DNA from: a virus
Strand: one strand, 5' to 3'
Virus record (IMG/VR): IMGVR_UViG_3300030380_000254
Location: 1-20,184 of that record
Length of the DNA: 20,184 bases
The notes under the pieces are model-generated. The model searched no databases. It saw nothing but the letters and a program-made list of their open reading frames with translations, and was not told the DNA's origin. Made by a program: the position numbers and the translations under genes. Positions 8,821 through 18,348 of the stretch are shown in pieces; positions within the stretch are counted from its first letter, which is position 1; each line of letters starts with the position of its first letter.

Positions 8821-8868
8821 TAGGTAGCCGCTTCGGTTACGTCAGGGCCGCGTTAGCGGGTAGCTGAC
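8821..8868 (-). repeat. Cluster of hairpins at the 845-residue gene / scaffold junction
   Basis: Two adjacent inverted repeats lie here: GTAGCCG/CGGTTAC around 8824-8840 with a 3-base loop and one wobble pair, and GTCAG (8841-8845) with CTGAC (8864-8868), which encloses CCGC-GTTA-GCGG. The left structure is intergenic and the right one covers the last codons of the 845-residue gene. No T-run follows on either strand, so it is not a normal terminator. It may be an mRNA processing or stability element before the strongly expressed scaffold and capsid genes. Confidence 0.4.
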
Positions 8869-11390
8869 AAATTAGTATTTAAGAATGATTCATCGCCTTG
8901 TAGTGTTGCATCTCCCATTGTTTTAGGTGCAAACACTGTGCCGACCATTTCTAAGATTGCTAGCGGAGGTGTGGCTTTTGTAGCTACCTTAGAGATTGCT
9001 CTGCCTGCAAGTTTACCTGCAGACTTAGGGTCGTTCTTAAATGTTTCTATAAAATTAACTTTTGATTTATCATCATGGAACACTTGTTCCTGTAAAAACA
9101 TCACCATGCTTTCCAAGGAGCGTTCACCTGTTTCGTAAGCCTTTTTCATGTTACGTATAAAACGTACGTTCTTGTTCAACTCTTTTTTAGGCATCTTTGA
9201 GAAGTATTCGTTTTTCTTCGATGCGTTTACTTTCCACGCTTCTTCCACACCTTCGAATAACTCATCTATCGTAACCTTGCGGCTAAGAATCTGCTGATTG
9301 CCCGGTCCGCCATGTACTGCGTACCTACGCGCTTTGTCTACAGACGGAGTGTGAAACTTGCCTACATTGGTGTCATCGTAGCCGTACTTGATTGTGGACT
9401 GCGCTTTGTTGGGGTCGATTGGCTCACCGCGATAAACTGTTACTTTGTCACCAGATGCGTATCCGGGCCTATCAAGCATACCACCCTGCGCTGCTTCTTG
9501 CAGACGCTCCTTGGTTTCTGGCTTACCACGATTATTGATTTTTTTGAGTCTGTCGTAGCCGATGATTTTAGCGAGGTATGGTGCAACCGTTACTTCACCA
9601 CGAGAGATAGCTACATCTATTAGTTTAGTAGAGTTTTCTGAATTGTCAATAGTAATACCGCGTCTAACTGCTTCTTTTTGTGCATCGTTCAACATTTTCT
9701 TGATGTCTTGCTCTCCCGCGAACTCTACTGCGGCAGCGTTGATAACGAACGCACCCTCTGGCATCTGTGTTTCTACGTCGTCTGCAACAGTCTGTTCTTC
9801 GGGTACTTGACTAGGTGGGCGGTCAACAAAGCCAGACCCCATCCCTGCAGCTATCCCGCCTACTGCCATGCCGACTGTTCCGCCAGCAGCGTACTCATCC
9901 GGGTCTAAACCTTCGAAGTCATCAACGTTATCGAACGAAGATTCTCTGCTAGGACCGCTAGAAGAGATGGTGGGTCCTTCATCATCACTGTCATAAAAGT
10001 CCCCAGCTAAACGCTGCCGTCCAGCTTCAATATTACGTTGTCTCTGCGCTTCATCTGCCCTACGCTGTTCGTCCTGCCTACGCTGCTCGGCTCTATCTGC
10101 AGCAATCTTATTTTTCTCTGCTTGAATGAGGTCTGCTAACTTCCCTTTACCTGCACGAGCATCATTAATAATATCCTGCATACGGTCTTGTTCAGCTTTT
10201 GTAGTCCACCCAAACTCACTTTTAGCAAGTCTATTTCGGTCAGCAGCATTGGCGTATTTAGAATAACCAACACCGGGTGTATAATATTTACCGTCTGCTG
10301 TGTAAAATCCTTTAAGACGATTGTTTGGGTCTGTAAAAACACCCCCTGAGTCTTCGACACTAACATTAGCTTTGAAGTCGCCAAAGTCAGTAAGACCTGC
10401 TTTACCACTAAAACGGTAACTCTTAGGAATGAAACCTTTGGAAAGAGCTTCTAGGTCTTTTATCTGATTGACAGACATACCCTGTAAGTTACCCGTATAT
10501 CCTCTAGCACCGGGTCTACGGGTGATTCCCATTCCGCTGCCAAACTGCATGGCAAAACCCGTGTCTGAGTATTTAAACATATCTCCGGGCATACCTCTTG
10601 CAGCACTTTCTGCTGCTCTAATCTGAGTCATATCTTCATACTGCTTGGCATGAACCAAATCTGACACCACACCAAGAGGACCAGAGGGACGGAACGACGT
10701 TGCACCAAAAGCATTTTTAACTGTATCACCAGTAAGGAGACTGCCCACTGTGCCGAGTCCGGTCATAGCAAATACCCCAGCCATAGCCTTCGGTATACCT
10801 TCAGCAACCCTCTTCTTTACCCCCGCAAAACCTTCTTCACGCAACTCAGCAAACTCTTCAGATAGAGTCTGCGGCGCATCTCTAACAGCCTGTATACCTT
10901 CTCTAGCTTCTACGCCCAAAACACTAAGGTCTATGTCACGGTAATTACCCTTAGTAAACGGTTCGTAAATACCACTAACAAGATTTACACGGTCCATCTG
11001 CCCATTATTACGAAGATACTCGGAGTAAGTAGCATACTCTGATGTGTAATTCTTATAAGCATCCGCCCCATACTTAATGCTACTAGCACCTGTTGTTGCC
11101 TCGCCATCTGTAAAGGTAGGGTCACGCAATACGTTAGTAACTGCCTCACTCTCGTCTACGCTATCTTGTTCCTCTGGTTTAATTTCATCTCCAACTTCAG
11201 GCGCACCTACCTCAATGTCAGATTCTTCACCTAAACCCGGCAATCCTAGAAACTGATTATAAAAATTGACTTTGCGTGAACCATACTCTTCTTGCGTCAG
11301 TTCTTTCTGACCCACGTACTTAAACCCACCAGTATCGGTAGGGTCAAAGCCCAAGCGTGGTCCCATCCCAATGTCAATTCTGTCAACCAT
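8853..11390 (-). CDS. Large virion protein with ADP-ribosyltransferase-like segment
   Basis: This 845-residue protein lies between the portal and scaffold genes, where short-tailed phages encode internal or ejected virion proteins. Its parts are: an acidic N-terminus (about 1-100); a Gly-rich region with hydrophobic patches (200-245); a charged Arg/Glu/Gln helix (430-460); a Gly/Ala/Met-rich stretch (500-520, GGTVGMAVGGIAAGMGSGF); a conserved-looking domain (530-625, PEGAFVINAAAVEFAGE and IIGYDRLKKINNRGKPET); then residues 648-715 with VTVYRGEPID and GKFHTPSVDKARRYAVHG. The YRG and FHTP...A..YA pair resembles the Arg and Ser/Thr motifs of ADP-ribosyltransferase folds, but the catalytic Glu could not be placed. 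The PEGAFVINAAAVEFAG block recurs in marine phages. Its ATG overlaps the previous small gene by 8 bases. Confidence 0.75.
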   Translation of the reverse strand: MVDRIDIGMGPRLGFDPTDTGGFKYVGQKELTQEEYGSRKVNFYNQFLGLPGLGEESDIEVGAPEVGDEIKPEEQDSVDESEAVTNVLRDPTFTDGEATTGASSIKYGADAYKNYTSEYATYSEYLRNNGQMDRVNLVSGIYEPFTKGNYRDIDLSVLGVEAREGIQAVRDAPQTLSEEFAELREEGFAGVKKRVAEGIPKAMAGVFAMTGLGTVGSLLTGDTVKNAFGATSFRPSGPLGVVSDLVHAKQYEDMTQIRAAESAARGMPGDMFKYSDTGFAMQFGSGMGITRRPGARGYTGNLQGMSVNQIKDLEALSKGFIPKSYRFSGKAGLTDFGDFKANVSVEDSGGVFTDPNNRLKGFYTADGKYYTPGVGYSKYANAADRNRLAKSEFGWTTKAEQDRMQDIINDARAGKGKLADLIQAEKNKIAADRAEQRRQDEQRRADEAQRQRNIEAGRQRLAGDFYDSDDEGPTISSSGPSRESSFDNVDDFEGLDPDEYAAGGTVGMAVGGIAAGMGSGFVDRPPSQVPEEQTVADDVETQMPEGAFVINAAAVEFAGEQDIKKMLNDAQKEAVRRGITIDNSENSTKLIDVAISRGEVTVAPYLAKIIGYDRLKKINNRGKPETKERLQEAAQGGMLDRPGYASGDKVTVYRGEPIDPNKAQSTIKYGYDDTNVGKFHTPSVDKARRYAVHGGPGNQQILSRKVTIDELFEGVEEAWKVNASKKNEYFSKMPKKELNKNVRFIRNMKKAYETGERSLESMVMFLQEQVFHDDKSKVNFIETFKNDPKSAGKLAGRAISKVATKATPPLAILEMVGTVFAPKTMGDATLQGDESFLNTNLSATR

Positions 11391-11604
11391 TCTTAACTAT
11401 CGCCTCGTAATTACTCTTCAGCTTGAGGAGCATTTCCACTAAAGCCAGCTTCCCCTGCACTTGGCGCAGTTCCGACTCCGATTGTGCCGTTACCACGGCC
11501 CGAATCATCGATTCCCTGACTTCCTGCAGGTACTCCTCCATCAGGGGCCATTCCTTGTTGTTCACCAGCGGGGCCAGCTTCTGCGCTTGCTGCTTGTTGA
11601 GCAT
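11383..11604 (-). CDS. 73-residue helical protein overlapping the portal 3' end
   Basis: This frame starts at ATG 11604 inside the portal gene, in a different frame, and ends 8 bases into the next gene. It has its own Shine-Dalgarno, AAGGA (11619-11615), 10 bases upstream. The peptide is a convincing folded sequence: MLNKQQAQKLAPLVNNKEWP then EEYLQEVRESMIRAVVTAQS and RQVQGKLALVEMLLKLKSNY, two long amphipathic helices. I recognise the style of a small helical protein often encoded just after phage portal genes. The portal sequence encoded by the same bases is low-complexity Gly/Ala/Pro/Gln, so this frame is the constrained one. A role as a small head-assembly or connector helper is inference. 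Confidence 0.8.
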   Translation of the reverse strand: MLNKQQAQKLAPLVNNKEWPLMEEYLQEVRESMIRAVVTAQSESELRQVQGKLALVEMLLKLKSNYEAIVKNG

Positions 11605-13528
11605 TTGCCATCATTCCTTGTAACATTTTCGCATAGAGTTGTGCTTCGTTGGCATCGTTTACCAGACTATCAGGGTCGATGTCCTGTGATATTGCCAACT
11701 CCCTCATCAGGTTGGGTATCTTGACGAATGGAGCTAACATTGGATTTGCTACGGTTTGCAGCAGAGTTGTTAAACGCTGACTGCGAACTTCCTTCTGCAT
11801 AACAGCCGCAACACCCCTTGGTTTTATCTCTAAGTCGCCTACTATGTCCGGCGCATCGTTGTTGAACTGCATGTTCCATTGAAAATACGCCTCTCCTAGT
11901 GGTTTTAGCAACATATCATCTATGTTCTTTACAACCGTCTTCATAGACAGCCCTGCAGACCCCATCAGCATTGATAGACCTGCTGCGGTACGTCCTGTAC
12001 CAGTAACACCTGTCTGACCGTGCATAATCGATGGGATACCTGTTTCCTCATCAGCTAACTGTCGGCTAATCTGATACATCTGTAGGTTCTCACCTGCAGT
12101 GTTAGGAAACTTTAAGCCGTTGATTGCTGTGCCAGTAACACCCGACTGACGGCGGAATATCTTGCCGGGGAAGATGTCCATGTTCTGACCCGGTACAAGA
12201 CTAGCTTCATCCACGTCAAACACAAGGTTACCCGCAAGTGCTAGATTATCGATTGCCATCCGAACGTGACCGTTCATCAGCTTCTGTGCATCTTCCATGT
12301 TCTCAGCAACGCCAACACCCCATAACTGGTATGGGTTGACTTCGTATGGGAACACCTGATACGGAATACGGGCTGGGGTGAATGGGTTCAAGACACAGCG
12401 CAGAATCATGTTTCCGCAGACCCAAATGTTTACCTGAAGCTCATCGAACTCAGACATCATGTCCGCTTCTTCAAACCCTGCCGCCTTTGCAAGTTTAGAG
12501 TCGAGAACACCCCAGTATTCTAGAACCTCGTAGCGGCTTTCAGATACGTATGGCTCGGTTTCATCCTCACGAATAGTATCCTCGTAATATTTGTCCTCGT
12601 AGTTAGGACCTTTCGCCAAGCACTCTTCGATAGCTTCTGCGATAAAGTGCGGACGCTTAATTAATGCGCGGAGTTGCTGACGATTAAATCTGTGACGTTC
12701 TACGACGTATTCACAGTCATCTATGCTGGTAGCTGACGGGTCAGGGTGGAAGTCCCACGCAGACACCATCTCAATTCTAGGTACAACCTTTTCATACGGC
12801 TGATACTCACGTTCGCCGTCATCGTTGCGGCCCCACTGATGGACACGCTTATAGAAGTTAAAAGGTCCCTTGACAATACCTGTGCCAAGAAGGGACGATT
12901 CAAATATAGCATTACGAAATACGTTTACTGCGTTAGTGTCGAGAAGCTGGTCATGGATGACCTTTTCCATATTCATTGCTGCAATCTGTGCTGGGCTAAT
13001 CTGTGGTTCGCCCATCTTTGCAGGTCCTTCAGCAAGGGGCAACTGCCCGTACTCGCCCTGAAGACCACCAAGGAAGTTGCTGGATGGTTCTGCACCCAAT
13101 GCTCCCGGCAACATCTCTCGTCCGTCACCAGCAAAACCGTAGGGGTCTTGCGTCTGGTCTAGAGGTGTCTCCATGTGAGCAAACTCCGCAATCCCTTCGG
13201 GGACCGGAGTGTGTTGCACAACCAGCGGAAACTTCTTGTTGGCAAAAAGAATATCTACAATTTGACCATACGCTGCCAAAACCTTTGTCTTGGTAATCCT
13301 TACGAATACCTTAGACCGTTCTGAGTCACGATAGGCTGTTGTAGAATCATACACACCACGAAAGTTCTTGTAGGCTTGCAACCAACGCTGCTCATGAGAG
13401 TAACGCCCGTTTTCTGCTTCTTCGAACTTTTCTTTTACATAGCCAGCAAGACCCGGAAAGGTCTCTTCTGGGTTGACTATTGAGATAGAGGTGTCATCTT
13501 CAGGTTGAAGGAAATTATCTTCTGACAT
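11411..13528 (-). CDS. Portal protein
   Basis: This 705-residue protein should form the dodecameric ring at one capsid vertex through which DNA enters and leaves. The N-terminal region contains VKEKFEEAENGRYSHEQRW and TKTKVLAAYGQIVDILFANK; the middle holds VVPRIEMVSAWDFHPDPSAT and YRV-like adaptor text (VLEYWGVLDSKLAKAAGFEE); the stem and wing region has PYQLWGVGVAENMEDAQKLM, and GRTAAGLSMLMGSAGLSMK before the helical C-terminal part. These are typical of the large portals of short-tailed phages. The last 64 residues are disordered Gly/Ala/Pro/Gln-rich sequence overlapping another gene. Its ribosome site is weak, and the ATG lies 3 bases after the previous stop, suggesting re-initiation. Confidence 0.9.
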   Translation of the reverse strand: MSEDNFLQPEDDTSISIVNPEETFPGLAGYVKEKFEEAENGRYSHEQRWLQAYKNFRGVYDSTTAYRDSERSKVFVRITKTKVLAAYGQIVDILFANKKFPLVVQHTPVPEGIAEFAHMETPLDQTQDPYGFAGDGREMLPGALGAEPSSNFLGGLQGEYGQLPLAEGPAKMGEPQISPAQIAAMNMEKVIHDQLLDTNAVNVFRNAIFESSLLGTGIVKGPFNFYKRVHQWGRNDDGEREYQPYEKVVPRIEMVSAWDFHPDPSATSIDDCEYVVERHRFNRQQLRALIKRPHFIAEAIEECLAKGPNYEDKYYEDTIREDETEPYVSESRYEVLEYWGVLDSKLAKAAGFEEADMMSEFDELQVNIWVCGNMILRCVLNPFTPARIPYQVFPYEVNPYQLWGVGVAENMEDAQKLMNGHVRMAIDNLALAGNLVFDVDEASLVPGQNMDIFPGKIFRRQSGVTGTAINGLKFPNTAGENLQMYQISRQLADEETGIPSIMHGQTGVTGTGRTAAGLSMLMGSAGLSMKTVVKNIDDMLLKPLGEAYFQWNMQFNNDAPDIVGDLEIKPRGVAAVMQKEVRSQRLTTLLQTVANPMLAPFVKIPNLMRELAISQDIDPDSLVNDANEAQLYAKMLQGMMANAQQAASAEAGPAGEQQGMAPDGGVPAGSQGIDDSGRGNGTIGVGTAPSAGEAGFSGNAPQAEE

Positions 13529-13531
13529 ATC

Positions 13532-13750
13532 TTAGTAATCGCGTTCTTCAGCCATTTTCATTACGTTAGGGTCTACTGCACCCTTAGTTGCAACTTTTGG
13601 CATGTCTTCAGTCAAAACACCTTGAGCAGTCTTGGTGTCAAACTCTAAACCTTCACGGTAAAGCTGGTCTGCACCCATCTGGTCATCAACAGAGGTGTTT
13701 GGTGAGTTCATGATGTAAGCTGCCCCATAATTGTAATTATTACCCGGCAT
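13532..13750 (-). CDS. Small unknown protein before the portal
   Basis: ATG 13750 is chosen because GGGAG lies 6 bases upstream; ATG 13756 would sit directly on that ribosome site. The 72-residue product begins MPGNNYNYGAAYIMNSPNTS, with an Asn/Tyr-rich start, and continues into acidic and polar sequence (DDQMGADQLYREGLEFDTKT, ending EERDY). It lacks membrane segments or clear domains and is probably mostly flexible. The gene is wedged between the recombinase-like gene and the portal with only a few bases on either side, so it is likely expressed with them. No function is recognised; a small head-completion or virion protein is possible. Confidence 0.65.
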   Translation of the reverse strand: MPGNNYNYGAAYIMNSPNTSVDDQMGADQLYREGLEFDTKTAQGVLTEDMPKVATKGAVDPNVMKMAEERDY

Positions 13751-13762
13751 TTTCATCTCCCG

Positions 13763-15898
13763 TTATCTAGTTAAGAAGCCTTGGTCTTGATTGACAGGGG
13801 CGGCTTCGGGTCCTCTGTCAATATCTACGAAGCCAGTGTCTCTCTGAACCTCTGCCATAGCGCGGTCTTCAGGAGTTAGTTCACCACTAGCTAATTCTGT
13901 GGGTTGCATAATCATGCTCACCGCTGCACCGGGTCCCGCGCCAAGACCTCGTTCAAGAAGGACTTCCTTGCCGAGTTCGGCGGCAGTTGCTACAGGTTCT
14001 TCGATGAACTGACGAGCAGTCTCTAGGGCTGCACCTATGCCAATCGCTTTAGCTGTCTTTCCAAGGAACCTGCTTAACAAGCCCGTTTTCTCTAATTGAT
14101 TTTTAACTTCTGGGTTCTGGTCTAAATAATCAGATAAGTCAGCGGACGCAGAAGTGGATTCAATGTTGAGTCCTGCTTTTATCTTTGCACGTTCTTCTTT
14201 GCGAATCTGTTCTGCTTTTAGACGACGTTGTTCTTTGGAACGAATGGCTTCCTCATCTAGGTCACCCATCTGGGTTTCTAGTTCGAGGCGTTGCTTCTGT
14301 GCAGTTGTAGCAGCCAGCTTCAGTTCCTGACTACGGGCTTCGCGAACATCTTCAATCAGGTCGAGGTCGGCATCTGTTAAAGTCCCTTGAACCTGTGTAC
14401 CAACAATCTCTGCACCCTTTGGGATAACGGCAAGTTTAGGTGCGCCTTCGATAGTTAAACCTTTTGCTTGGACACCCATAGACGCTGGCAACTCATTTAG
14501 GGTAGATAGCCCGAGGACTTCACCGTACATGTTTTGCAGCGCACGTAGGGCTTGCTTGGCTGTGGTTCCCTCGCCCGTAATAATCTGAGATGCGTAGTGC
14601 TTACGGGTGATTGACTTCATACCGTCCACGGTGTCGTCAAACGACTTGTGACCCATAATTACACTAGCTTCTTCTCCATATCCTAACTCGTTCGCAATAA
14701 TGGATGGGATAATCTTACGAATATCAGATGCGCCTTGAAGAGGCCGTCCCATGTCTTTTTCGAAGGGCTTGAACCTATCAGATATACCGCCCTCTATGTT
14801 GATGGCCTTCGACATCTTAGTAGTGCTGGTATTGAACACTGTGTCGCGACCTTCTTGACGGGCAACGTCAGAAGCATCACGTAGTATTTCTAAAGCAACC
14901 TCTGGTAGGTCTAACTCGTTACGAATCTTGTTTACACGACGGTAAGCATCCTTGAAAGAGCCTGTTTCAAAATCGATATCATCAATCTTGATGCCAGCAA
15001 CTTCACCGGGACGCAGAGGCACTAAAGCATTGAAGGCAACTGCTGCACGAGTTTGAGGGTCAGGTATGGCAGCAATACCTTCTGTAAGAGCCTTGAGAGA
15101 TTGCTTGGCTTCTGGTACACCCTTGAAGGCTTTTGTACGACGTGCTTGCTTGGCTTTCTCTAAGCCCAGTCCTTTTCTAGCTTTACCCTCTGCACCAAAC
15201 ACAGTAGTATATGGGAAAGGTGTGTCTGCAGCAGAAGCAGCAGCCTTCAGTTCGTTCTCAATAGTATTCAAGCTTGTGAAGTTTGATTCTGAGCCAACTT
15301 CGTTTAGCTTAGTGAGAAAGTCTGTATCCTTTATCGAATCCCACGGCGAATCCATAGTAAGACCTGCAGCTTCTATATTCTTACGAAGTGCAGCGGGTAC
15401 TTTACGAATGTCAAGAGCCTCACCAACGGTAAGGCTTTTGTTTTTAATCTTGTCTGATAAACTTGCCACAGATTTTCCTTTTACCGCTACTGGCTCGTTT
15501 GCTGCCGCTGTGGGTTTTCCTGCTACTATGTTTTTAGAAGCAGAAGCACCTTTCTCCTGCATCTCCATTGTACTGCCAAACTTCTTTTCGTAAGCGTCAA
15601 AGCTATCTACGTCAAAAAGTTCTGGGGACTCTAAAGTTAACGCCCTTGCAATACCAAAAAATGCGTTTTCATCTGCTAGAGGAAAACCATTTGGAAACTG
15701 TTTCATAAACTGTATAGTTTGTTCCGCAGTCAGTTTTTTAGGTACTTTTATGTTCGCGTTAGGGTTGCCCCCCTCTACTATTAAATCTTCTTGAACAGTT
15801 GCGAACTTTTGAAGTTCTCGTATCTCTAGACGTAATGCGTCTATCATAGAGGATACAGTAGATTTGTTTTTACCTATATCTGTTGGATTATCCGCCAT
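13763..15898 (-). CDS. Large protein with embedded tyrosine recombinase domain
   Basis: This 711-residue protein is encoded between the large terminase and portal genes. Residues about 260-440 fit a tyrosine recombinase catalytic domain: Arg296 in LVPLRPGEVAGI, possible Lys324, Arg394 in SDIRK, His417 in IMGHKS and Tyr435 in RKHYAS. The 23-residue Arg394-His417 spacing is standard. The first His of the usual HxxR box is Ser391, and the His-Tyr spacing (18) is about nine residues longer than usual. The N-terminal 210 residues look helical and linker-rich. Residues 515-575 are a charged coiled coil, and the C-terminus (605-670) is Gly/Ala-rich and mildly hydrophobic, like ejected virion proteins. 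The ATG overlaps the terminase TGA (TGATG). A virion-delivered recombinase is inferred; integrase activity is untested. Confidence 0.8.
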   Translation of the reverse strand: MADNPTDIGKNKSTVSSMIDALRLEIRELQKFATVQEDLIVEGGNPNANIKVPKKLTAEQTIQFMKQFPNGFPLADENAFFGIARALTLESPELFDVDSFDAYEKKFGSTMEMQEKGASASKNIVAGKPTAAANEPVAVKGKSVASLSDKIKNKSLTVGEALDIRKVPAALRKNIEAAGLTMDSPWDSIKDTDFLTKLNEVGSESNFTSLNTIENELKAAASAADTPFPYTTVFGAEGKARKGLGLEKAKQARRTKAFKGVPEAKQSLKALTEGIAAIPDPQTRAAVAFNALVPLRPGEVAGIKIDDIDFETGSFKDAYRRVNKIRNELDLPEVALEILRDASDVARQEGRDTVFNTSTTKMSKAINIEGGISDRFKPFEKDMGRPLQGASDIRKIIPSIIANELGYGEEASVIMGHKSFDDTVDGMKSITRKHYASQIITGEGTTAKQALRALQNMYGEVLGLSTLNELPASMGVQAKGLTIEGAPKLAVIPKGAEIVGTQVQGTLTDADLDLIEDVREARSQELKLAATTAQKQRLELETQMGDLDEEAIRSKEQRRLKAEQIRKEERAKIKAGLNIESTSASADLSDYLDQNPEVKNQLEKTGLLSRFLGKTAKAIGIGAALETARQFIEEPVATAAELGKEVLLERGLGAGPGAAVSMIMQPTELASGELTPEDRAMAEVQRDTGFVDIDRGPEAAPVNQDQGFLTR
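13791..13821 (-). repeat. Inverted repeat at the 3' end of the recombinase-like gene
   Basis: TTGACAG (13791-13797) and CTGTCAA (13815-13821) are exact inverted copies 17 bases apart, with two more pairs possible inside. They lie in the last codons of the 711-residue gene, just upstream of the small gene before the portal. No T-run follows, so a terminator is unlikely; an mRNA structure or a protein-binding palindrome is possible. Confidence 0.35.
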
Positions 15899-17601
15899 CA
15901 GTATCCAAATGTCCCGTCAAAAGGTTGGAACGCCTGTTCTTTTATGCCTTGCAAAGTTTTGTGAATTGATGTATAACCAGAAGTGCGAGTCATAACCATA
16001 TAACGGAGTGCATCATATGCGTGGTCTTCAGCTTTGGTATCTACATCTTCACTGTTTGTTTTCGACAGTGGTATTCCCGACAGTTGCGCTGTGGTGTGTT
16101 TACATGTCGAGAAGATGCGTAAACGCGGTTCTTTGGTGTACGGGTCATCTGCCAATCTTCTGTGCAGTTCCATCTTGCCTTGAAGTCGGTTACGGTCAGA
16201 TGGTGTCCAGCGTACCCCTGCCCTCATCATAGTTTCTGCGATAGATGGGCCGAATCCTGTTTTGTTCCAGCACGAAGCATCTAACACGTTATAGTGGGGA
16301 AGAGGGTCAAGTTCTTCCATTTGTAGTATTTTATCAGCCAACTGCTCTGCTGTCAAGTGCTTGGCATATAGCTCACGATAGACCCAGATGTTGTTGTCCC
16401 AATCGATTGCACCCCACAGGACACAGGATGGTGAAGCATAGCCATAGTCAGCGGCTCGTATACGGGGCCAGTTGAAGGGCATCTCAAACGGTTCAACGAC
16501 ATGACGAACTCGTGAGAACTCAGGAAAGGCTGCGCCTTCCGCTACATCCCAATCTCCGTCTAACAACCTACGACGTTCGACATCTGGCAACGAACGCAGC
16601 ATAGCTTCGTACTGCCCGTCTGCCATCAAGTACGGATTATCTGTTAGACGTGCGGGTACGAACTTGCGGTAGAAGAGTGGCTGTCCGCCCTTCTCTGGGT
16701 GTGTGTCAGGCCAAAGAAACGTTTTGCCCGTCTCCGGGTCATACGCTGGAAAAGCCTTATTTGCCTCGTGCTTGTCGATATACATTTTTTTAACCCACCA
16801 GCCGCCGACACCACCGGGGTTGGCAGTGCAGCGCATACATAGGTTTTTTTGCAACTCTGGGTCTGTAGAGCGAAGACGCGAACGCAGGTAATCCCAAACA
16901 TAGCTACTCGGATATTGTGTTATTTCATCGACGCCTATCCAGTTGAAAGCCTGACCTTGGAAACGGGTCACATCTTTGTCTCTGTCTAGGTAAGTAAACC
17001 ACATGGTTGCCCCAGAGGGGAAGACCCATGTAGATTTAGATTCCCGATAGATTGCGCCGGGAAACGCTTTGGGGTAAAGCTGCTTTGCTTTATCAATCAG
17101 TTCAGTTAATTCGTCCAGAGTCCGACGGAGAAGTAGACCACGGTGATTAGAATTGTGACAATACCGGAGAGGGTCAGCAAGCAAGGCAAAGCTCTTTCCA
17201 CCCCCTGCTGCACCGCCATACAGTACGTCCTGCTCTGGGGCAGACAGAAACTCTTCTTGAGGACCTTCATTAGGTTGGAATATAACTGGTGTATCATCTA
17301 TTAACTCTTGCACGGTTGCTGGGAGATTAGCAACGTCGTTACCATCTACGACCCGCGAACCTGTGCCGTTAAGCGCGGTTTCTACCTTCTTCGCACTTTT
17401 CTTTAGTTTACGTGCGTAGCTGGCTTTGTCCTGCGCTTTCTTCTGGTGTTTTTCTTTTGATTTCTCAGCCTTGCGAACACGAGCTTGTAAGGCCCTTCTT
17501 GCACGTTCGGCACGAGATAGGTTGTATATAGCCTTGGGTGCGTTAGGGTCCTTCTTGGGCCTACCGCGCTTTTTCGGCTGAGTTTCCTGCTTTTCTTCCA
17601 C
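15898..17601 (-). CDS. terL: Terminase large subunit (packaging ATPase and nuclease)
   Basis: This 567-residue protein packages DNA into the procapsid and cuts it into genome units. The ATPase core has the Walker A motif LYGGAAGGGKSFALL (Lys136), Walker B WIGVDE (Asp225, Glu226) and a TANPGG coupling motif near 259. The RNase H-like nuclease follows, with candidate metal-binding Asp385 (RAADYGYASP), Asp441 (NVLDASCW) and Asp526/Asp530 (KAEDHAYDALRY). Before the ATPase lies an unusual basic extension of about 100 residues with an AT-hook-like core (KKRGRPKKDPNAPK, residues 10-23) and a Lys/Arg coiled region to about 75. The start is GTG 17601, 41 bases inside the preceding gene. The stop overlaps the next ATG by one base. 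Confidence 0.95.
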   Translation of the reverse strand: MEEKQETQPKKRGRPKKDPNAPKAIYNLSRAERARRALQARVRKAEKSKEKHQKKAQDKASYARKLKKSAKKVETALNGTGSRVVDGNDVANLPATVQELIDDTPVIFQPNEGPQEEFLSAPEQDVLYGGAAGGGKSFALLADPLRYCHNSNHRGLLLRRTLDELTELIDKAKQLYPKAFPGAIYRESKSTWVFPSGATMWFTYLDRDKDVTRFQGQAFNWIGVDEITQYPSSYVWDYLRSRLRSTDPELQKNLCMRCTANPGGVGGWWVKKMYIDKHEANKAFPAYDPETGKTFLWPDTHPEKGGQPLFYRKFVPARLTDNPYLMADGQYEAMLRSLPDVERRRLLDGDWDVAEGAAFPEFSRVRHVVEPFEMPFNWPRIRAADYGYASPSCVLWGAIDWDNNIWVYRELYAKHLTAEQLADKILQMEELDPLPHYNVLDASCWNKTGFGPSIAETMMRAGVRWTPSDRNRLQGKMELHRRLADDPYTKEPRLRIFSTCKHTTAQLSGIPLSKTNSEDVDTKAEDHAYDALRYMVMTRTSGYTSIHKTLQGIKEQAFQPFDGTFGY

Positions 17602-18319: not shown

Positions 18320-18348
18320 ATTATGGTAACAATATGGTGTATTGTCAA
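18320..18348 (-). promoter_or_regulatory. Sigma70-type promoter of the packaging and head operon
   Basis: On the minus strand TTGACA (18348-18343) is a perfect -35 box and CATAAT (18325-18320) a five-of-six -10 box, with a 17-base AT-rich spacer. The predicted start of transcription is near 18313, about 110 bases before the small terminase ATG. No other promoter of similar quality was found between here and 6450, so this one probably drives packaging and head genes as a long polycistronic transcript. Confidence 0.7.

Follow-up and report, generated by a model that had tools for sequence, protein, structure and literature searches.

The window analysed here, 20,184 nucleotides of viral DNA (positions 1 to 20,184 of IMG/VR record IMGVR_UViG_3300030380_000254, which is 47,051 bases long), raises the question of why a protein resembling a phage integrase should be encoded among the genes that build the virion. 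A previous reading of the sequence alone had placed a tyrosine recombinase domain within a 711-residue protein encoded between the large terminase and portal genes, and had suggested that this protein may be packaged and delivered with the DNA. The gene, which we call the slot gene, begins with an ATG codon and spans 13763..15898 on the minus strand, as do all window genes located below. Its product comprises an N-terminal module (residues 1–140; 15479..15898), a core-binding domain (residues 141–260, boundary approximate; 15119..15478), a catalytic domain (residues 261–445; 14564..15118), a coiled-coil-like continuous helix of 68 residues (509–576; 14171..14374), a C-terminal region with a moderately hydrophobic segment (577–686; 13841..14170) and a tail that ends in DQGFLTR (687–711; 13766..13840). 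Across the family, slot proteins span 530–850 amino acids.

Profile comparisons identify the protein as a divergent recombinase. The PHROG integrase profile phrog_1 matches residues 263–436 of the window protein (E = 2.4e-6), and the match to Pfam PF00589 is sub-threshold (E = 0.014). Among 60 homologues, PF00589 matches 28 at E ≤ 0.01 (best 1.2e-7) and phrog_1 matches 36 (best 2.3e-10). Searches with single sequences returned nothing useful (phmmer, window protein against PDB sequences) or zero matches (tblastn, four slot proteins against 50,697 phage records).

Predicted structures point to the same enzyme family. An AlphaFold2 model of the full window protein is confident over residues ~142–415, mostly with pLDDT values above 90, including an all-helical core-binding domain, and the loop that carries Tyr435 (420–444) is poorly modelled. 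When this model is compared with the PDB by Foldseek, ranks 1 to 28 are all tyrosine recombinases (best E 3e-3, probability 1.00), including lambda Int, XerH, Tn1549 Int, XerA, Cre and IntI, and the alignments cover both domains of lambda Int, Tn1549 Int and the Xer proteins. A core model of a very divergent member (L098, pLDDT 87) recovers the same set at E values down to 8e-8, with tyrosine recombinases making up all 50 of the PDB matches listed, and also matches phage integrases among predicted viral structures. Both models therefore place these residues in the core-binding and catalytic fold of lambda Int, Xer and Cre. Profiles, models and conservation together confirm, at the level of sequence and prediction, that the 711-residue protein contains a complete tyrosine recombinase. 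The coiled coil proposed by the sequence-only reading corresponds to the long helix predicted in the AlphaFold2 model.

In an alignment of the cores of 60 slot proteins, whose median pairwise identity is 16%, conservation is highest in five columns, namely Arg394 (box II Arg, codon 14717..14719; 60/60), Arg296 (box I Arg, 15011..15013; 60/60), Phe355 (59/60), the predicted nucleophile Tyr435 (14594..14596; 58/60) and Lys324 (14927..14929; 55/60 in this alignment, A5, and 59/60 in alignment A1), and the two homologues that lack an aligned Tyr435 carry a Tyr 3–4 residues later. The two Arg residues and the Tyr named by the sequence-only reading are thus conserved, so that neither result that would have spoken against its assignment (a fold other than a recombinase, or homologues lacking these residues) arose. 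Lys324, the catalytic Lys of the β-hairpin, had been overlooked. The corresponding Lys of the L098 model lies between strands 189–192 and 204–207, which is the expected hairpin. Codon comparisons within two of the core types described below yield dN/dS values of 0.01–0.12 over the core, indicating purifying selection. Conserved R-K-R-Y columns combined with low dN/dS are the signature of a working enzyme, and they strongly imply that the slot protein is catalytically competent, from which we infer activity.

The position of the gene is fixed. The TGA codon of the gene for the terminase large subunit (terL, 15898..17601) overlaps the slot ATG codon as TGATG, and a 74-codon ORF (13532..13756), found in nearly all slot loci, lies between the slot gene and an SU10-type portal gene (11411..13528; PF23899, E = 4.5e-27). 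The operon also encodes a small terminase, a variable post-portal protein (8853..11390, ending in ESFLNTNLSATR), a scaffold-like protein and a major head protein. We gathered further loci of this clade by using the window terL and the slot proteins as queries, and the slot gene fills the interval between terL and portal in 73/73 loci that hold both. Loci recovered solely through recombinase cores (L098, L085, L107 and L021) have terL before the gene, portal after it, or both, wherever the contig reaches. As a rule, the slot gene is followed by an ORF of 70–100 amino acids, which retains the pattern ...LYREGLEFDT...LTEDMPKK...AEERDY. The slot start codon lies −4 to +4 nucleotides from the terL stop in 101/101 distinct loci. 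This spacing and the TGATG overlap support translational coupling to terL, and the recombinase is very probably produced alongside the packaging and head proteins. Flanking terL and portal leave no non-coding DNA around the gene, unlike the arrangement of a stand-alone temperate-phage integrase beside its attP. Position within the virion operon, as first read from the window, therefore extends to the entire clade. An SGNH hydrolase encoded upstream of the portal in phiM6 was considered as a relative of the slot protein and rejected, as the two have no similarity.

The slot gene is carried by uncultured ocean phages that make up a widespread group. The window terL is ~48–56% identical to those of HMO-2011, CRP and HTVC phages, and the remainder of the record encodes a replication module whose DNA polymerase carries a zinc-finger (DnaJ-like) insert, as well as a ribonucleotide reductase and giant proteins of the internal-virion type. 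On the basis of terL identity and module content, including the polymerase insert, which we take to be comparable to that of HMO-2011-type marine podoviruses, the window virus is a relative of that group. Two other features were observed. The 863-aa terL frame of one locus (L109, 6747–9338; MAG contig NVWB01000161.1, labelled Blastopirellula) is interrupted by an intein-like stretch, with a homing-endonuclease-like ORF further downstream (15006–15710). In addition, two copies of the 17-nucleotide sequence TTATGGTAACAATATGG lie 3.4 kb from each other in inverted orientation, at window positions 18321–18337 and at contig positions ~21733–21749 (L015 ~1733–1749). In the window, the copy lies outside coding sequence and, on the minus strand, overlaps with a promoter-like TTGACA...CATAAT arrangement, so it is perhaps an operator or promoter element.

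Comparison with the sister clade suggests what the recombinase might be for. Several HMO-2011-type subgroups carry a stand-alone integrase (PMC9038755). In HMO-2011 itself this gene lies beside the primase. In the HMO-2011 clade the interval between terL and portal is at most 272 nucleotides long and empty in 76/76 loci, and an integrase of 291–353 amino acids accompanies the empty slot in HMO-2011 and in 5/5 clade contigs of at least 37 kb; three shorter contigs (31–36 kb) have no detected integrase. Conversely, PF00589 matches outside the slot gene in 0/8 slot contigs of at least 42 kb. Two of these, G001 (L227–L229) and G003 (L233–L235), look complete because they have direct repeats of 91 and ~80 nucleotides at their ends. 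The complementarity is significant (Fisher p = 0.0003), though it is a single contrast between two clades and so counts as one evolutionary event. The sister phages CRP-13 and HTVC115P have neither the slot gene nor a stand-alone integrase, and the recombinase function is thus dispensable for some relatives. This complementary distribution nevertheless favours an integrase-like role, and suggests that an integrase has been relocated to the operon that builds the particle.

A second set of observations concerns the virion. The C terminus has the form (G/N/S)F(L/I/V/A/S), typically GF(L/V/I), in 79/87 distinct slot proteins. Most post-portal proteins finish with the same kind of tail, as does, in several genomes, a protein of ~175 amino acids encoded before the giant internal proteins. 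The post-portal proteins are highly variable (561–1200 amino acids; window 8853–11390, L006, L012, L013, L100, L195 and L203), and those of L100 and L012 have a cell-wall hydrolase domain (PF07486) at their end, which fits the expectation for entry proteins. Inspection of other versions revealed an HExxH-like stretch, AHEFRHA, in L006 and, by eye, a VYRGE...FHTPSVDKARRYA stretch in the window protein that could be ADP-ribosyltransferase-like. Differing post-portal bodies in the HMO-2011 clade (L110–L189) often end in a basic KKMK(K/R)GGLASKK-type tail, possibly a clade-specific docking or packaging peptide. This tail differs from the GF(L/V) tail, and so each clade seems to put a tail of its own on variable protein bodies. 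A weak hydrophobic segment lies at a rather steady distance from the C terminus, 66–163 residues in 50/54 slot proteins, and reaches KD19 ≥ 1.6 in 5/54. The supposed Gly/Ala richness of the C terminus amounts to a mild enrichment, with these residues making up just 23% of residues 577–711 of the window protein versus 18% of its catalytic domain.

Late-operon expression, entry-type neighbours and a common tail make it plausible that the slot protein is packaged and delivered with the DNA. The extensions, with the 68-residue helix and the hydrophobic segment, add to this argument, although that segment is weak. Ejection proteins are encoded in the late (virion) operon, and so is the slot protein in all resolved loci. 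Giant proteins of the internal-virion type (about 700 and 1,560–1,650 amino acids) are already encoded separately, and therefore ejection does not need the slot protein. Packaging is also not the default for integrases: in the one virion proteome consulted from a phage with an integrase, that of P-SS2 (PMC2784084), the conventional integrase went undetected.

We consider the best explanation to be a competent integrase, encoded in the late operon, that most likely becomes part of the virion and reaches the cell along with the genome, a reading to which we assign a probability of roughly 0.45. The slot recombinase would replace the stand-alone integrase of the sister phages and would be made together with the terL and portal proteins. 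Its C-terminal region and GF(L/V/I) tail would help to incorporate it into the virion, it would enter the cell with the genome, and it would cut and rejoin DNA at a type-specific site such that the incoming genome integrates or circularises. A fuller version, in which the integrase is packaged by its tail, is ejected, acts before phage gene expression and circulates as at least 14 specificity cassettes within one ocean clade, is put forward more tentatively.

An integrase that is translated with terL and acts in the infected cell without being packaged, in lysogeny or late circularisation, with its extensions serving a regulatory or other role, would account for the intact active site and the complementarity with the stand-alone integrase. 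The swapping of types described below resembles integrase exchange among temperate phages, and relatives such as CRP-3 do integrate (PMC9038755). However, expression from the late operon would be odd timing for a lysogeny decision, and no repressor or other lysogeny gene is recognised in the complete genome G001. Furthermore, presence in 100% of the clade is unlike the patchy occurrence of integrases, and the tail is common to neighbouring virion-operon proteins. We therefore judge this alternative unlikely, if still a serious one.

Integration itself, whether by a packaged or an unpackaged enzyme, finds little in the surrounding DNA. Five genomes contain no tRNA genes and hence no tRNA-type attP, the window has no Rfam match, no attP-like feature or lox-like inverted repeat was found, and lox- or telomere-like dyads do not occur above chance. 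A low-sensitivity scan of 84,980 genomes yielded no close prophage of the slot clade and one distant match, in which the slot is empty. With no attP, tRNA, dyad site or prophage found, the case for integration is weakened.

A role during packaging in the producing cell, where the protein would resolve or linearise replicated DNA beside the terminase in the manner of Xer and Cre or of a telomere resolvase, is consistent with the coupling to terL, the adjoining portal gene and the universal presence in the clade. Yet phages of the HMO-2011 clade package DNA with an empty slot, and the dyads that such an enzyme would act on are those just noted as missing. The pattern of cassette exchange is also unlike that of a terminase partner. 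For example, one relative (L021) has a terL gene 93% identical to that of the window and a slot gene with no detectable DNA similarity, after which 90% identity resumes from the last ~24 slot codons onward, so that the tail remains with the flank. Slot cassettes are thus swapped between phages whose flanks are 90–94% identical. The N-terminal module is exchanged independently of the core, as judged by DNA comparison: L011 and L012 have it in common with the window protein, although their cores show no DNA-level relationship to the window core, and it is absent or replaced in L003–L009. When types are defined at 35% core identity, at least 14 are present, and 69/146 pairs with terL at least 95% identical (47%) carry different ones. 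This makes a partner of the terminase improbable. In the preferred explanation, the core types would probably differ in the DNA sites recognised, which is why phages would exchange whole recombinase cassettes, and swapping would reflect different DNA sites or hosts.

Departures from the canonical active site might indicate a catalytically dead recombinase fold retained as a DNA-binding protein or a head-vertex scaffold. The sequence-only reading had noted that Ser391 (codon 14726..14728) replaces the first active-site His and that the gap between His and Tyr is long, and had expected altered activity. Both features are real. The box-II column holds S28, Y14, A8 and others and is His in 0/60, so the canonical HxxR His is absent family-wide, and the His/Trp position preceding the Tyr (His417, 14648..14650) is kept in part (H30, R24, W6). 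Tyr and Lys variants at the box-II His site are established among tyrosine recombinases, and this departure is consequently a variant that does not exclude the protein from the superfamily. Net charge, negative in 54/54 complete slot proteins, could be taken to speak for a dead fold and against DNA binding, but the HMO-2011 integrase also lacks a positive net charge (0), so this argument was set aside. With R-K-R-Y intact in all types, best conserved of the core columns at such low overall identity, and with dN/dS very low, the expectation of altered activity is weakened and a dead fold is very unlikely. Finally, tyrosine recombinases can act as invertases, and late expression might suit phase variation of phage genes, but this reading is rejected as highly improbable since inverted repeats are lacking, with no long ones around the tail genes and no pair of at least 15 nucleotides in G003 or G004.

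The enzyme family is known. Our search of the open literature revealed no earlier account of its architecture here, of the fixed site between terL and portal, of the complementarity with the integrase or of how many types are exchanged, and no precedent for packaged or terminase-adjacent tyrosine recombinases. If the preferred reading is true, it would break the rule by which integrase genes are early, non-structural and stand alone, and a podovirus could recombine its own genome as it enters the cell, with no need for gene expression. Among marine phages, the HMO-2011 type is a dominant group. A possibly obligate lytic lifestyle has been inferred for those of its subgroups in which no integrase is recognised (PMC9038755), whereas a divergent recombinase located in the virion operon can be missed in annotation, and phages annotated as integrase-free could, if a virion-carried integrase exists, recombine with their hosts. 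Such extreme exchange of types among otherwise near-identical genomes suggests that selection on the DNA site, or on the interaction with host or competitor, is strong and probably frequency-dependent. The clade also supplies at least 14 natural recombinase types, presumably with different specificities.

The slot protein can be compared with four known systems. It shares its fold and R-K-R-Y residues with the tyrosine recombinase superfamily (PF00589, phrog_1; lambda Int, XerH/XerA, Tn1549 Int and Cre), but adds the N-terminal module, long helix, C-terminal tail and late-operon position, never has the box-II His and often has Arg at the His/Trp position. The stand-alone HMO-2011-type integrase (HMO-2011 gp09; PMC9038755) belongs to the same phage group and superfamily and is mutually exclusive with the slot protein; it differs in being ~300 amino acids long, in adjoining the primase/helicase genes of the early module and in lacking extensions, and profile similarity between the two is confined to the stretch from box I to box II. 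The ejection or internal virion proteins of podoviruses (T7 gp14–16, P22, SU10 gp20–24) resemble the slot protein in their late genes and long helices, and swap enzymatic domains between phages in modular fashion (PMC8954989). That review mentions no recombinase or integrase, and the slot protein is a putative virion component. The closest parallel within the operon is the variable post-portal protein, which has a similar GF(L/V) C-terminal tail and a variable enzymatic body, and which carries cell-wall hydrolase or other domains where the slot protein carries a recombinase.
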